From Candidatus Undinarchaeales archaeon SRR5007147.bin71 (GTDB lineage Archaea > Undinarchaeota > Undinarchaeia > Undinarchaeales > Undinarchaeaceae), in assembly GCA_014189675.1 (NCBI GenBank), contig DVAE01000035.1, positions 1 through 33,757 on the forward strand: 33,757 bases of DNA. The letters are read 5' to 3'. Under the pieces are notes generated by a model. That model worked only from the letters and a program-made list of their open reading frames with translations, was not told the origin of the DNA and did no database searches. Positions within the stretch are counted from its first letter, which is position 1; each line of letters starts with the position of its first letter. A program made the translations under genes and the position numbers. Shown in pieces: positions 7,733 through 12,352 of the stretch.

Positions 7733-7756
7733 AAGTTTTATTCAAAGGAGGTAAAA

Positions 7757-7921
7757 ATGACCAAATGCATAGAATGTGAAGCAGAAATAAATCTTCCATC
7801 AGGCCTTGAAAAAGGAGAAGTCATCGACTGCCCGGAATGCGGCGTCGAGCTAGAAGTAGTCAATGCTGAAAAGGGAGAACTAAGAGTCGCTGAAGTTGAA
7901 GGCGAAGACTGGGGACAATAA
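7757..7921 (+). CDS. lysW: Amino-group carrier protein LysW, with C-terminal Gln instead of Glu
   Basis: LysW is the small acidic carrier on which alpha-aminoadipate (lysine route) or glutamate (ornithine/arginine route) is held through an isopeptide bond while LysX, Z, Y and J modify it. This copy has the standard 54 residues, a zinc ribbon with C4, C7, C25 and C28, many acidic residues, and a tail ending EDWGQ. The normal tail is EDWGE, and the side-chain carboxyl of Glu54 is the attachment point. The final codon is CAA (7916-7918) followed by TAA. The ATG at 7757 is set by the strong AAAGGAGG six bases upstream; a longer frame from GTG 7670 is not credible. The lysX ATG follows the stop with no gap. 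Confidence 0.95.
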   Translation: MTKCIECEAEINLPSGLEKGEVIDCPECGVELEVVNAEKGELRVAEVEGEDWGQ

Positions 7922-8764
7922 ATGCTACGTGTAGGCTTTCTCTACTCCAAGATAAGACAGGATGAAAAACTGCTTCTAGAGGAGATGAGAAAAAGGAATT
8001 TAGAAATCGTCAAAATAGATGACAAAGAGCTAAACTTGAGTCTGGAGAAGCAAGACTTTGGAATAGATATCTTACTAGAAAGAAGTGTAAGTCATTCCCG
8101 AGCACTATATGCTCTAAAATTCTTCCAGAGTTACGGAATTCCCACTGTAAACACCTTTGATGTTGCCACAGTCTGCGGTGACAAGGCATATACTTCACTA
8201 GCACTTGAGAACCACGGAATTCCAACACCTAAAACAAGGGTTGCTCTTACAGAAGAAACGGCTATCCAGGCTATGGAAGAGCTTGGCTGGCCCTGCGTCA
8301 TAAAACCTGTAACTGGTTCATGGGCAAGAATGTGCGCAAAACTCAATGACAAAGATGCTGCGGAAGCAGTTCTTGAGCACAAAAAAGTTCTCGGAGAATA
8401 TATGCACTCAATTTTCTATATTCAGGAATACATAGAGAAGCCTGGAAGAGATATAAGAGCCTTCGTAGTCGGTGATGAAACTATTGCAGCAATTTACAGG
8501 GAATCAGAGCACTGGATTACTAACACTTCCCGCGGAGCAAGCGCCAGAAACTGCGAAGTTACTGAGGAATTAAATGAAATTTGTCTCAAAGCGTCAGAGG
8601 CAGTCGGCGGCGGAGTTCTTGCAATGGACGTTTTCGAAGGAAAAGATGGTTTAATGATGAATGAAGTTAATTATACAATGGAATTCAAAAATTCTGTTGA
8701 ACCGACTGGCGTTGATATCCCTAAAAAGGTAATTGACTACGTCGTGGAGAAGGCACGTAAATGA
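7922..8764 (+). CDS. lysX: LysW ligase, LysX/ArgX family (ATP-grasp)
   Basis: 280-residue ATP-grasp ligase that joins the alpha-amino group of aminoadipate or glutamate to the C-terminal side chain of LysW, using ATP. Motifs: [16 protein letters not shown], the ATP-binding Lys in [30 protein letters not shown], and the metal/substrate region [21 protein letters not shown]. Length is normal for the family. Whether it accepts aminoadipate, glutamate or both cannot be settled by eye. It directly abuts lysW and overlaps lysY by ATGA. Confidence 0.93.
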
Positions 8765-9753
8765 AAGCAGCAATTATTGGAGCATCTGGTTACACAGGAG
8801 CAGACTTAATAAGGATTCTTGATAGTCATCCGGATGTCGAAATAAGCGCGATCACATCCAGGAAGTATATTGGAAAATCCGTCTGGAAGGCTCATCCTAG
8901 CATGCGAAATCTGAATCTAAGATTTACTGAATACACAAAAGATGCAGACGCAGATGTTATATTTTTAGCTCTGCCTCATACAGCTTCAATGGAAAAAGTT
9001 CCGGAACTTCTAGAAACTGGTGTCAAGGTTATTGACCTGAGCGCAGATTTCAGGCTTAAAGACCTCAAAATTTGGGAAAAAACCTACGGAGCAAAACACA
9101 CAGCTCCAAATCTTATTGAGAAAGCAGTGTACGGACTTCCTGAGCTTCATCGTGAAGAAATTAAGAAAGCAGATTTTGTTTCAGGAACTGGCTGCGAAGC
9201 AACTGCAGGTATCTTAGCTCTAGCTCCTCTTCAGGGAAAGGCTGACAAAGCAATTATTGATGTCAAAGTCGGAGGCTCAGCTGCCGGATCTACAGGAAAT
9301 GCCGGAACTCACTATCCTGCCAGAGCAGGGAATGTCCGTCCTTACTCTCCAAGTAAACACAGACACCAGGAGGAAATTAAACAGGAAACCGGCTTTGAGG
9401 TTTCAATGACAGCTCATGCGGTTGATTTAGTCAGAGGAATCCTGGCGACCTGCCACATACCCAATTTTTCCGAAGATGTTTCAAAGCTCTACAGAGATTT
9501 CTACAAAGATTCTCCCTTCATCAGAATTACACCAAAGGATCCAAAATTCCTTCCAAATCCAAAATATGTTGTCGGCTCAAACTACTGCGATATCGGCATC
9601 GTGACTGATGAAGAGCACAAAAGAACAGTAGTATTCTCTGCTATCGACAATCTTGTTAAAGGCGCATCCGGCCAGGCTATCCAGTGCATGAACTTGATGT
9701 TTGGATTAAAGGAGGAGACTGGATTGGAGGCACTGCCTCTATATCCAGCTTAG
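8761..9753 (+). CDS. lysY: LysW-bound acyl-phosphate reductase, LysY/ArgC family
   Basis: 330 residues. NADPH-dependent reduction of the carrier-bound aminoadipyl or glutamyl phosphate to the semialdehyde. The N-terminal Rossmann motif is [16 protein letters not shown]; the catalytic Cys is C145 in [10 protein letters not shown]; the family signature [24 protein letters not shown] is complete, with His-rich SKHRHQEE and [10 protein letters not shown] following. Member of the LysW operon, overlapping lysX by 4 nt and ending 1 nt before lysZ. Confidence 0.93.
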
Positions 9754-9754
9754 G

Positions 9755-10534
9755 ATGTTCATAGTCAAAATCGGTGGAAGTGTTTTGAGCCAGAGCGAAG
9801 AAATTGTAAAAGATCTTGCAAACTATAAAGATTTTATTGTCGTTCACGGAAGCGGTCCCCAAGTTGACAAACTAACTAAGGAGAGGCTCGGAAAAGAGCC
9901 ACGCTGGGTCTATTCTGTCAGCGGAGTAAAGTGCAGATATACTGACTCTGAAGTTATTTTGCTTCATCAGGAAGTATGCAGAGAGCAAAGTTCAAAACTC
10001 GTTGAACTCCTAAAAACTAATGGGATGGACGCAGTCGGCTTCGCTGAAAGTCCAATAATTTTTGCCAAAAGAAAAGAAGCTATCAAAGTTATTGAAAACG
10101 AAAAAAAGAAAATTCTAAGGGGAGACCAAAGCGGAAAAATTGAGAGAATAGATTCCGAGGGTCTAAAATCAGTACTTTCTAAAGGAAAAATTCCAGTTAT
10201 ACCTCCTCTAGCAATTGGTCACAATGGAGAGCCCCTGAATGTTAATGGAGACCGAGTATGCGCTTACCTTGCCCGTGAGCTTGGGGTTGATACAATAATT
10301 AATCTGAGTAATATTCCAGGATTCCTAAGAAATGAAAAAGTAGTTCCTGAAATAAAACTTAATGAACTTGAACAACTTAGAAAGGAAACACGGGGTGGCA
10401 TGTCAATCAAACTTATTGGAGTTCAAGAAGCCATGAACTTTGGAGTTCAAAAATTCGTAATCTCATCCGGAGAAATAGATAAGCCAGTAAGCTCCGCACT
10501 AGCTGGAAAAGGAACGGTGTTCTTACATGGATAA
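9755..10534 (+). CDS. lysZ: LysW-bound aminoadipate/glutamate kinase, LysZ/ArgB family
   Basis: 259-residue amino-acid kinase that phosphorylates the distal carboxyl of the LysW-linked amino acid. Visible are N-terminal VKIGGSVL, VVHGSGPQVDKL, the IPVIPPLAIGHNGEPLNVNGDRVCAYLA region and the GGMSIKLIGVQEA segment. The basic and bulky residues near KCRYTDSE are typical of the LysZ branch, which contacts LysW rather than an acetyl group. It overlaps the start of lysJ by 8 nt. Confidence 0.92.
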   Translation: MFIVKIGGSVLSQSEEIVKDLANYKDFIVVHGSGPQVDKLTKERLGKEPRWVYSVSGVKCRYTDSEVILLHQEVCREQSSKLVELLKTNGMDAVGFAESPIIFAKRKEAIKVIENEKKKILRGDQSGKIERIDSEGLKSVLSKGKIPVIPPLAIGHNGEPLNVNGDRVCAYLARELGVDTIINLSNIPGFLRNEKVVPEIKLNELEQLRKETRGGMSIKLIGVQEAMNFGVQKFVISSGEIDKPVSSALAGKGTVFLHG

Positions 10535-11687
10535 GGAAGATAAATTTATTGAAAGCGTCTATTCAAAGAGAAAGATAGAGTTAGTTCGCGGCAAAGGTGC
10601 CATAGTATTCGATTCTGAAGAAAGGGAGTATATTGACTGTTTTGACGGACAAGGAGTTGCACTAGTCGGTCACGGCGTCGAAGAAATCAATTCCGCTGTA
10701 AAAGAGCAGATGGATAAAATTTCAGTTGTAGCTCTTAGTTTCTATAATGAGGTTCGCGCAGAGTTCGGAGAAAAACTTGCTTCAATCTCACCAAAAGGAA
10801 TGACGCAAGCTTTTCTGGCGAATTCAGGAACAGAAGCAATCGAATGCGCGATCAAACTTTCAAAAAAGTACACAGGAAAGCCAGGAATTGTTGCAATGAG
10901 TGGGGGATTCCACGGAAGAAGTCTCGGAGCCCTGAGCGCGACCTGGAAACCGATGTACAGAAAACAATACGAACCACTTCTTCCTGACTTCAGTCACGCA
11001 AAGTTCAATGATATTGAAAGCCTAAAACAGACAATTACAGATAAAACAGGAGCCGTTATGCTCGAGCTCGTTCAGGGAGAAAAAGGGGTAGTACTTTCAG
11101 ACAAGGAGTACGTAAAAGAGCTCAGGGAATTCTGCACTGAGAAAGAACTCTTGCTAATTATTGACGATGTACAGGCTTTTGCCCGTACAGGAAATTTCTT
11201 CAGCTCACAGACCTACAATATTGTGCCAGATATTACTACAATTGCAAAAGGGATGGCAGGTGGAATCCCAATGGGTGCCTGTATTGCAAGCCCGGAGATT
11301 ATGGACGCATTCAAGCCCGGAGATCACGGGACTACAATGGGCGGAAATCCAATTGCTTGTGCTGCCGGAACTGCAACTATTGATTATATACAAAAAAACA
11401 ATCTTATTGAACATGGCGCTTCCATGGGAGAAAGGATGCTGAAAGGTATGAAAGAACTCGAAAGCTTCGATGTAGTCAGAGAAGCAAGAGGTATCGGGGC
11501 AATGCTGGCTCTGGAATATAAGTTTAAAATGGCCGGAGTTCTTCCAAATATACAAGAGAATGGAGTAATACCTCTAACTTCAGGAAAAAGAGCTCTCCGA
11601 TTTCTTCCGCCCCTTTGCATAAGTGAAGAGCAAGCCGATAAAGTCATTGAAGTTACTAAAAAGGTCACGGAGGAGTTCAAACAATGA
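10527..11687 (+). CDS. lysJ: LysW-bound semialdehyde aminotransferase, LysJ/ArgD family
   Basis: 386-residue class III PLP aminotransferase. Converts the LysW-linked semialdehyde to LysW-lysine or LysW-ornithine, usually with glutamate as donor. Motifs: ANSGTEAIECAIKLS (phosphate binding), GGFHGRSLGALSAT, IIDDVQAFARTG (the Asp contacting the PLP ring N), and the Schiff-base Lys K241 in TTIAKGMAGGIPMG. The last step normally needs LysK to free the product; no LysK follows. Instead the next gene overlaps this stop codon by ATGA. Confidence 0.93.
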   Translation: MDKEDKFIESVYSKRKIELVRGKGAIVFDSEEREYIDCFDGQGVALVGHGVEEINSAVKEQMDKISVVALSFYNEVRAEFGEKLASISPKGMTQAFLANSGTEAIECAIKLSKKYTGKPGIVAMSGGFHGRSLGALSATWKPMYRKQYEPLLPDFSHAKFNDIESLKQTITDKTGAVMLELVQGEKGVVLSDKEYVKELREFCTEKELLLIIDDVQAFARTGNFFSSQTYNIVPDITTIAKGMAGGIPMGACIASPEIMDAFKPGDHGTTMGGNPIACAAGTATIDYIQKNNLIEHGASMGERMLKGMKELESFDVVREARGIGAMLALEYKFKMAGVLPNIQENGVIPLTSGKRALRFLPPLCISEEQADKVIEVTKKVTEEFKQ

Positions 11688-12352
11688 AGATTCTGATTTA
11701 CGATTGTCACAAGGGCAAAGTTCAGGAAAGCGAGAAAATTAAGAAAGCACTTCTAAGAGGGCATCCTGATTTAGAAATCGACATAGCCGAAGTAAGGAAA
11801 TTTCAATTTCCGGACACAGGGAATTACGATGCTTTTATTGTTTCCGGAGCTGACGGGCATTCTGAAAAGCACGCTTGGCCAAGACTAATTAAGGAGCAGA
11901 TTTCTAAGATTATTGAAATCGGTAAACCTGTACTCGGCGTCTGTTTCGGGAGCCAAATTCTTGCGGAACTTAATGGCTTTGAAATTATTACACTAAAAAA
12001 GCCTGAGATAGGTTGGGTACAAGTTAACTTAACAGATCTCGGAAAAGAAGACCAACTATTCAAGGAACTTCCTACCAGCCTGCCTATATACCAATACCAT
12101 ATTAGGGCAGTAAAAGGAGACGGCAAGGTGCTTGCAGAGAGCAAAAATTGCATACAGGCCGTCAAATACAGTGACACTATTTACGGGATACAATTCCACG
12201 CCGAGGAAAGCCCCGAATCCGGAAAAGAATATTTAAAAACAGACCGAAAATGTGAAAACTATGACGAAGCTAGTGCTCTGGCTCCAGAAGAATACATCGA
12301 ATGGAAAATTTATCGAAATTTTATCGATATTATAACCAAAACCGTTAAATAG
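11684..12352 (+). CDS. Stand-alone class I glutamine-amidotransferase-like hydrolase in the LysW operon
   Basis: 222 residues of the COG0518/class I GATase fold. The triad looks complete: nucleophile C87 in GVCFGSQ, H172 and E174 in GIQFHAEE. The segment from EIGW through QYHIRAVKGDGKVLAES matches the usual GATase core. No synthetase domain is fused or adjacent. Its start overlaps the lysJ stop (ATGA) with a GGAGGAG ribosome site at 11669-11675, so it is made together with the LysW enzymes. It occupies the position where LysK might be expected. Known family members hydrolyse glutamine or gamma-glutamyl amides. Possible roles are deamidating Gln54 of LysW or releasing the product from LysW; an unrelated amidotransferase role is also possible. 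Confidence 0.85.
   Translation: MKILIYDCHKGKVQESEKIKKALLRGHPDLEIDIAEVRKFQFPDTGNYDAFIVSGADGHSEKHAWPRLIKEQISKIIEIGKPVLGVCFGSQILAELNGFEIITLKKPEIGWVQVNLTDLGKEDQLFKELPTSLPIYQYHIRAVKGDGKVLAESKNCIQAVKYSDTIYGIQFHAEESPESGKEYLKTDRKCENYDEASALAPEEYIEWKIYRNFIDIITKTVK
12344..12352 (+). promoter_or_regulatory. TATA-like element for initiator tRNA
   Basis: GTTAAATAG overlaps the stop codon of the amidotransferase-like gene and is centred about 29 nt before the tRNA start. It is the best-placed A/T box for the tRNA. Confidence 0.45.

Follow-up and report, generated by a model that had tools for sequence, protein, structure and literature searches.

The window, the whole stretch of 33,757 nucleotides analyzed here, belongs to the genome of an Undinarchaeum-type DPANN archaeon, phylum Undinarchaeota (G000, contig C21; 0.62 Mb, 83% complete), and contains an operon of the order lysW-lysX-argC-argB-argD-GATase (7757 to 12352) in which neighboring genes touch or overlap; lysX begins immediately past the lysW stop codon, and the GATase gene shares 4 nt with the end of argD (Table 1). 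The leading gene translates as MTKCIECEAEINLPSGLEKGEVIDCPECGVELEVVNAEKGELRVAEVEGEDWGQ, followed by a stop codon, so that the protein ends in EDWG-Q and the reading frame in CAA-TAA. Archaea use carriers of this kind to build lysine, ornithine or arginine, with the cargo held by the glutamate end.

The predicted carrier shares with LysW/ArgW of Thermus, Sulfolobus, Thermococcus and Natrinema its zinc ribbon, its length, the EDWG motif, and the adjoining lysX and argB/argC/argD genes that mark a LysW/ArgW operon; it differs from them in encoding Gln instead of Glu as the last residue, in falling under the NCBIfam LysW cut-offs, and in having no lysK in its operon. The protein reached 55.8 bits against Pfam PF21344 (cut-off 27), with the CxxC...CxxC pattern of this zinc-ribbon family, and stayed below the cut-offs of NCBIfam NF041070 (62.8 bits, cut-off 75) and TIGR01206 (35.8 bits, cut-off 53.2). 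Where a standard LysW has its cargo-bearing C-terminal Glu, the window gene encodes Gln54; by sequence it is filed as a Gln-ended variant and not as a standard LysW.

Table 1. Predicted features of the carrier operon in the window.
Feature	Position	Strand	Evidence and remarks
Shine-Dalgarno-like AAAGGAGGT upstream of lysW	7744..7752	+	From sequence reading
lysW-like amino-group carrier, 54 aa	7757..7921	+	Zinc ribbon Cys4, Cys7, Cys25, Cys28; C-terminal EDWG-Gln; translation, NCBIfam, Pfam
Codon 54, CAA (Gln)	7916..7918	+	Characterized LysW: Glu at residue 54
lysX/argX, carrier-charging ATP-grasp ligase	7922..8764	+	TIGR02144, 352 bits (cut-off 275.6); closest PDB entry 3vpd, E=4e-91
argC/lysY, reductase of carrier-bound acyl-phosphate	8761..9753	+	TIGR01850, 391.8 bits
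argB/lysZ, [LysW]-aminoadipate/glutamate kinase	9755..10534	+	NF010659, 206 bits (slightly below the cut-off of 223)
argD/lysJ aminotransferase	10527..11687	+	TIGR00707, 390 bits (slightly below the cut-off of 410)
Class I GATase-fold hydrolase	11684..12352	+	PF00117; putative carrier-releasing gamma-glutamyl amidase replacing LysK, possibly also Gln54 deamidase

Conservation and selection of the operon

The locus was compared with two other genomes of the genus Undinarchaeum, UBA55 and ARS1358, and with Candidatus Naiadarchaeum limnaeum of the sister family. The carrier genes of UBA55 (L002/L018) and ARS1358 (L003/L019) likewise end in CAA-TAA, which places Gln54 in three separately assembled metagenome-assembled genomes (MAGs) of the genus; the Naiadarchaeum carrier (L004/L020) has GAA (Glu) at codon 54, indicating that Gln is a derived change at the genus or family level. 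The first-pass annotation had read residue 54 as Gln, and this reading holds: two of the observations that it named as fatal were not made, since a profile search of the whole window genome (83% complete) found no second, Glu-ended lysW, and the close relatives have CAA, with GAA in the sister family. Each of the four Undinarchaeota genomes yielded a single carrier in this search. That all of the Undinarchaeum genomes are MAGs might suggest a single-base sequencing or assembly error; this explanation is refuted by the CAA-TAA that the three genomes share despite separate assembly, and by complete ammonia-oxidizer chromosomes whose carriers likewise end in Gln.

Between the window and UBA55, omega (dN/dS) was 0.09–0.13 for lysW, lysX, argC, argD, and the GATase gene, level with the adjacent rnhB (argB was left out, as the UBA55 copy is broken by ambiguous assembly bases); these values place the operon under purifying selection in both genomes. 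ARS1358 presents a different picture (L102:6368-6640): a clean internal deletion fuses the start of lysX to the final codons of the GATase gene and leaves the Gln-encoding lysW intact, which is read from the sequence as a recent loss of the operon. Neither homocitrate synthase nor argininosuccinate synthase was found in the genus (genomes 75–86% complete), so that the likely product of the Undinarchaeum operon is ornithine, or lysine if aminoadipate is supplied. The deletion in ARS1358 and the missing synthases would suit a decaying pathway in which Gln54 is a loss-of-function change. This explanation is improbable: the tested genes have low omega values, Gln is kept between species and also across the ammonia oxidizers, one of which has no other carrier; a sole carrier shared by three MAGs, and an omega of about 0.1 for the five operon genes tested, argue that Gln54 is neither a sequencing error nor a sign of decay.

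In Naiadarchaeum, the corresponding region (L100, G003:C7:22000-36000) reads homocitrate synthase-lysW(Glu)-homoaconitase large and small subunits-lysX-argC-argB-argD-GATase, by gene content a complete-looking operon for lysine synthesis via aminoadipate. According to an earlier description, Undinarchaeota lack genes for amino-acid biosynthesis (PMC7414124).

Glutamine-ended carriers in other archaea

The C-terminal pattern EDWG[EQ]-stop was surveyed in 300 genomes from the phylum to which G050 belongs and in 394 archaeal genomes, with follow-up searches, a survey that sees EDWG[EQ] ends only. Ammonia oxidizers were recognized by AmoA and gene content; archaeal AmoA was found in 12 of 12 tested, confirming the guild for the sampled members of three families (f7, f80, and f83). 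All three families have Gln-ended carriers. In the largest, f7, every one of the 44 genomes contains two EDWG[EQ]-stop genes, as a Gln and a Glu copy in 42 genomes, two Gln copies in one (G133), and two Glu copies in another (G315); at least one Gln-ended gene is thus present in 43 of 44. The neighborhoods that were read have the Gln copy in the order homocitrate synthase-lysW-lysX-lysK, and the Glu copy, an arginine carrier, in argG-lysW-argX-argC-argB-argD. Gln and Glu copies also coexist in all three f80 genomes and in one f83 genome (G336), while another f83 genome (G279) has two Gln copies. The complete 2.84 Mb chromosome of G267 (f83) encodes a single carrier, Gln-ended, together with lysX, argX, argG, argB, argC, argD, and lysK; at its carrier locus (L212, G267:C1:2640000-2656000) lysX and argX are separate genes, with only this one carrier gene. 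Beyond these families, Gln-ended carriers occur in f74 (G167), in the order argG-argH-lysW(Gln)-lysX-argC-argB-argD-lysK, and in f174 (G613 and G661) and f159 (G551). Gln54 had initially been taken as a peculiarity of the window's lineage, an assumption that does not survive its occurrence in ammonia oxidizers and in three or more further groups of archaea.

On a tree of the LysX proteins encoded next to the carriers, Glu and Gln states change at least six times, a count without f159 and G133's second Gln copy (lysX non-adjacent), and Gln-ended carriers arose at least five times in archaea. The lysine carrier of G315 (L216, G315:C47) has Glu at its end where its close relatives have Gln, a natural reversion; with Glu in this lysine copy, the two residues appear interchangeable. 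The tabulation of residue 54 that the first-pass annotation had proposed gave Glu in 127 and Gln in 17 of the EDWG carriers, with Gln recurring beyond the window's lineage, and no other residue, which together with the tree points to more than chance; part of this set was chosen with the E/Q pattern itself, and the carriers recovered by protein search likewise end only in E or Q. No EDWGQ ending was found among the bacterial carriers recovered by protein search. Not being carriers, the EDWGQ matches of G386 and of G090 (at 44093) were discarded, as was one in G267 (1952672). A literature search that covered mainly papers outside subscription journals returned no report of a Gln-ended LysW or of LysW deamidation.

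Candidate enzymes for carrier release

The enzyme that releases the product from the carrier, LysK ([LysW]-lysine/ornithine hydrolase; M20 family, TIGR01902), had no match over the cut-off in Undinarchaeota; the best score in the window genome was 99.6 bits, against a cut-off of 163.1. No M20 peptidase of any type was found in Naiadarchaeum (98% complete). Undinarchaeum has one generic ArgE/DapE-type M20 peptidase, which lies outside the operon and is also present in ARS1358, a genome without the operon; this peptidase could be an alternative releasing enzyme.

In the place of LysK, the Undinarchaeota operons have the class I GATase-fold protein, for which the same role, product release from the carrier, is here proposed. 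It belongs to the class I glutamine amidotransferases (PF00117, 65.4 bits, cut-off 22.8), and its triad of Cys87, His172, and Glu174 is invariant in the three orthologs. At high score, the protein was found only in the three Undinarchaeota that possess the operon, and it is gone together with the operon in ARS1358. By sequence and fold it resembles gamma-glutamyl peptidase 1 (GGP1) of Arabidopsis (PDB 9k7i), alongside the GMP synthase glutaminase and other GATases; in the fold search, GGP1 was one of several GATases with tied Z values, so that a gamma-glutamyl peptidase is not separated from ordinary glutaminases. The Naiadarchaeum ortholog (52% identity) is found at the equivalent position of an operon whose carrier is Glu-ended, so that the GATase is not explicable as a Gln54 activator alone. 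The suggestion that the neighboring GATase is present to activate Gln is accordingly not supported, given this ortholog beside a Glu carrier and the Gln-type ammonia oxidizers, which have LysK instead. For the same reasons (its occurrence with Glu in Naiadarchaeum and its absence from ammonia-oxidizer clusters), the GATase was rejected as a common Gln-specific deamidase; nor do all Gln lineages share any gene that would be a dedicated deamidase; ammonia oxidizers have LysK, and f159 and f174 have none over the cut-off. The GATase looks mainly like a LysK replacement and is a good candidate to release the product.

A second arrangement without LysK was found in f174, where the operon reads lysW(Gln)-lysX-argC-class II GATase-argB/argD (L158:7702-12479; L159:8313-13111), with argB and argD fused into a single reading frame of about 667 residues; the f174 genomes, like f159, yielded no LysK over the cut-off. 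The class II GATase retains Cys2, and its best NCBIfam match is a weak one to EgtC (E about 3e-6); its AlphaFold model (pLDDT 37) was too poor for use. EgtC hydrolyzes a gamma-glutamyl amide. GGP1 and EgtC are likewise GATase folds that cut gamma-glutamyl amide bonds, in their case of small molecules, whereas here the proposed target is the last residue of a protein. That two unrelated GATase folds occur in LysK-less carrier operons suggests that gamma-glutamyl amidases may repeatedly have replaced the releasing enzyme.

Proposed activation and charging of residue 54

The side chain of Gln54 is a gamma-glutamyl amide with ammonia as its leaving group, chemically the same bond as the one cut to free ornithine or lysine from Glu54. 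Since the enzyme that ends the cycle cuts a gamma-glutamyl amide at residue 54, it is the simplest candidate for the first removal of ammonia. We infer a deamidation, its enzyme, and the GATase as LysK substitute as parts of one scheme, for which we see roughly even chances: the carrier would be made as a Gln-ended pro-form, and the releasing enzyme, which would be the class I GATase-fold hydrolase (11684-12352) in the window and LysK in ammonia oxidizers, would hydrolyze the Gln54 amide once, producing Glu54; LysX would then load Glu54 with glutamate or aminoadipate, ArgB, ArgC, and ArgD would transform the carrier-bound cargo, and the same releasing enzyme would free the product and restore Glu54. 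That the Gln-ended lysW encodes a functional carrier produced as such a pro-form is judged an evenly balanced proposition. If the releasing enzyme primes the carrier, Glu and Gln could replace each other over evolution, as in G315 and G279. Pup offers an analogy, and an analogy only, for the window's LysW-family zinc ribbon: it is a small carrier-like protein whose encoded C-terminal residue is Gln or Glu depending on the lineage, but without sequence relation to LysW; its deamidase Dop is glutamine-synthetase-like, whereas the candidates here are GATase-fold or M20 enzymes, and the ligand here is an amino acid.

Some observations count against the deamidation scheme. Gln is kept in 43 of the 44 genomes of f7, a pattern that resembles selection for this residue more than mere tolerance, and the scheme offers no reason for it; a selected role of Gln is possible, for example to prevent confusion of the lysine carrier with the arginine carrier until they are activated. 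The GATase beside a Glu54 carrier in Naiadarchaeum, the missing common deamidase gene, the tied fold matches of the GATase, and the generic M20 peptidase of Undinarchaeum also weigh against the scheme.

The main rival, to which we give a minor but real share of the probability, holds that LysX attaches the cargo to the free alpha-carboxyl of Gln54 by a normal peptide bond, in the manner of RimK with ribosomal protein S6, so that the amide stays and LysK or the GATase acts as a carboxypeptidase. The near-invariance of Gln in the ammonia-oxidizer copy would fit, and by profile match LysX is a member of the RimK alpha-L-glutamate ligase family; its assignment to LysX rests on the TIGR02144 cut-off, with conserved family residues retained, and GSWGR is a variable recognition feature. 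This motif, reported to recognize EDWGE (PMC10433800), reads GSWAR in the window and UBA55, a change in the direction of the rival; its Gly is present in 77 of 79 Glu-type LysX proteins. Beside it, the ARGG motif of Undinarchaeum LysX (window 7922-8764) reads SRGA. These changes are possibly co-adapted to Gln54; a LysX signature common to all Gln lineages was looked for and not found, and among these lineages GSWAR is limited to Undinarchaeum, while the Gln-carrying ammonia oxidizers retain GSWGR, contrary to what alpha-carboxyl charging would suggest. Moreover, an irrelevant side chain should let residue 54 drift, yet just Glu and Gln are seen, and the E54A change abolishes arginine synthesis in Natrinema (PMC10433800); together these argue that the side chain is important and has to provide a gamma-acyl group. 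One ammonia-oxidizer lysine copy ends in Glu although its LysX is closely related (L216 beside L098), and a single ArgB/ArgC/ArgD set serves both kinds of carrier. The restriction to Glu or Gln plausibly fits a gamma-acyl group that ends as Glu, that is, deamidation.

Two further routes appear much less probable. GATase-fold enzymes make gamma-glutamyl thioesters from Gln, and a gamma-Glu intermediate has been deposited for GGP1 (PDB 9k7l); the GATase might accordingly hand such a thioester of Gln54 directly to an amino acid, an ATP-free transamidation that bypasses LysX. This is a long shot: most Gln lineages have an intact LysX next to the carrier, a single turnover would in any case leave Glu at residue 54, and ammonia-oxidizer clusters have no GATase. 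Fainter still is the prospect that incompletely amidated Glu-tRNA(Gln) inserts some Glu at CAA/CAG, enough for active carrier. Archaea make Gln-tRNA by the indirect pathway via Glu-tRNA(Gln), and the window contains a CAA-reading tRNA-Gln (anticodon TTG, 743-815); mis-amidation would load only traces and gives no reason for conservation.

Returning to deamidation, the fuller proposition is that archaea including most ammonia oxidizers make a Gln-ended pro-carrier activated by deamidation, and that GATase-fold gamma-glutamyl amidases of class I (Undinarchaeota) and class II (f174) independently took over release from LysK in at least two lineages and also prime the carrier; taken as a whole, we hold it somewhat more tentatively than the scheme set out above. 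Amino-group carrier chemistry is taught as based on one C-terminal glutamate. Microbes with Gln-encoded carriers must either convert the Gln to glutamate or load the cargo in an undescribed way; if ammonia oxidizers make lysine on a Gln-ended carrier, then either an essential protein deamidation has gone unrecognized or the ligase uses a different carboxyl. If true, the exchange of LysK for a GATase would fill a missing pathway step in Undinarchaeota.
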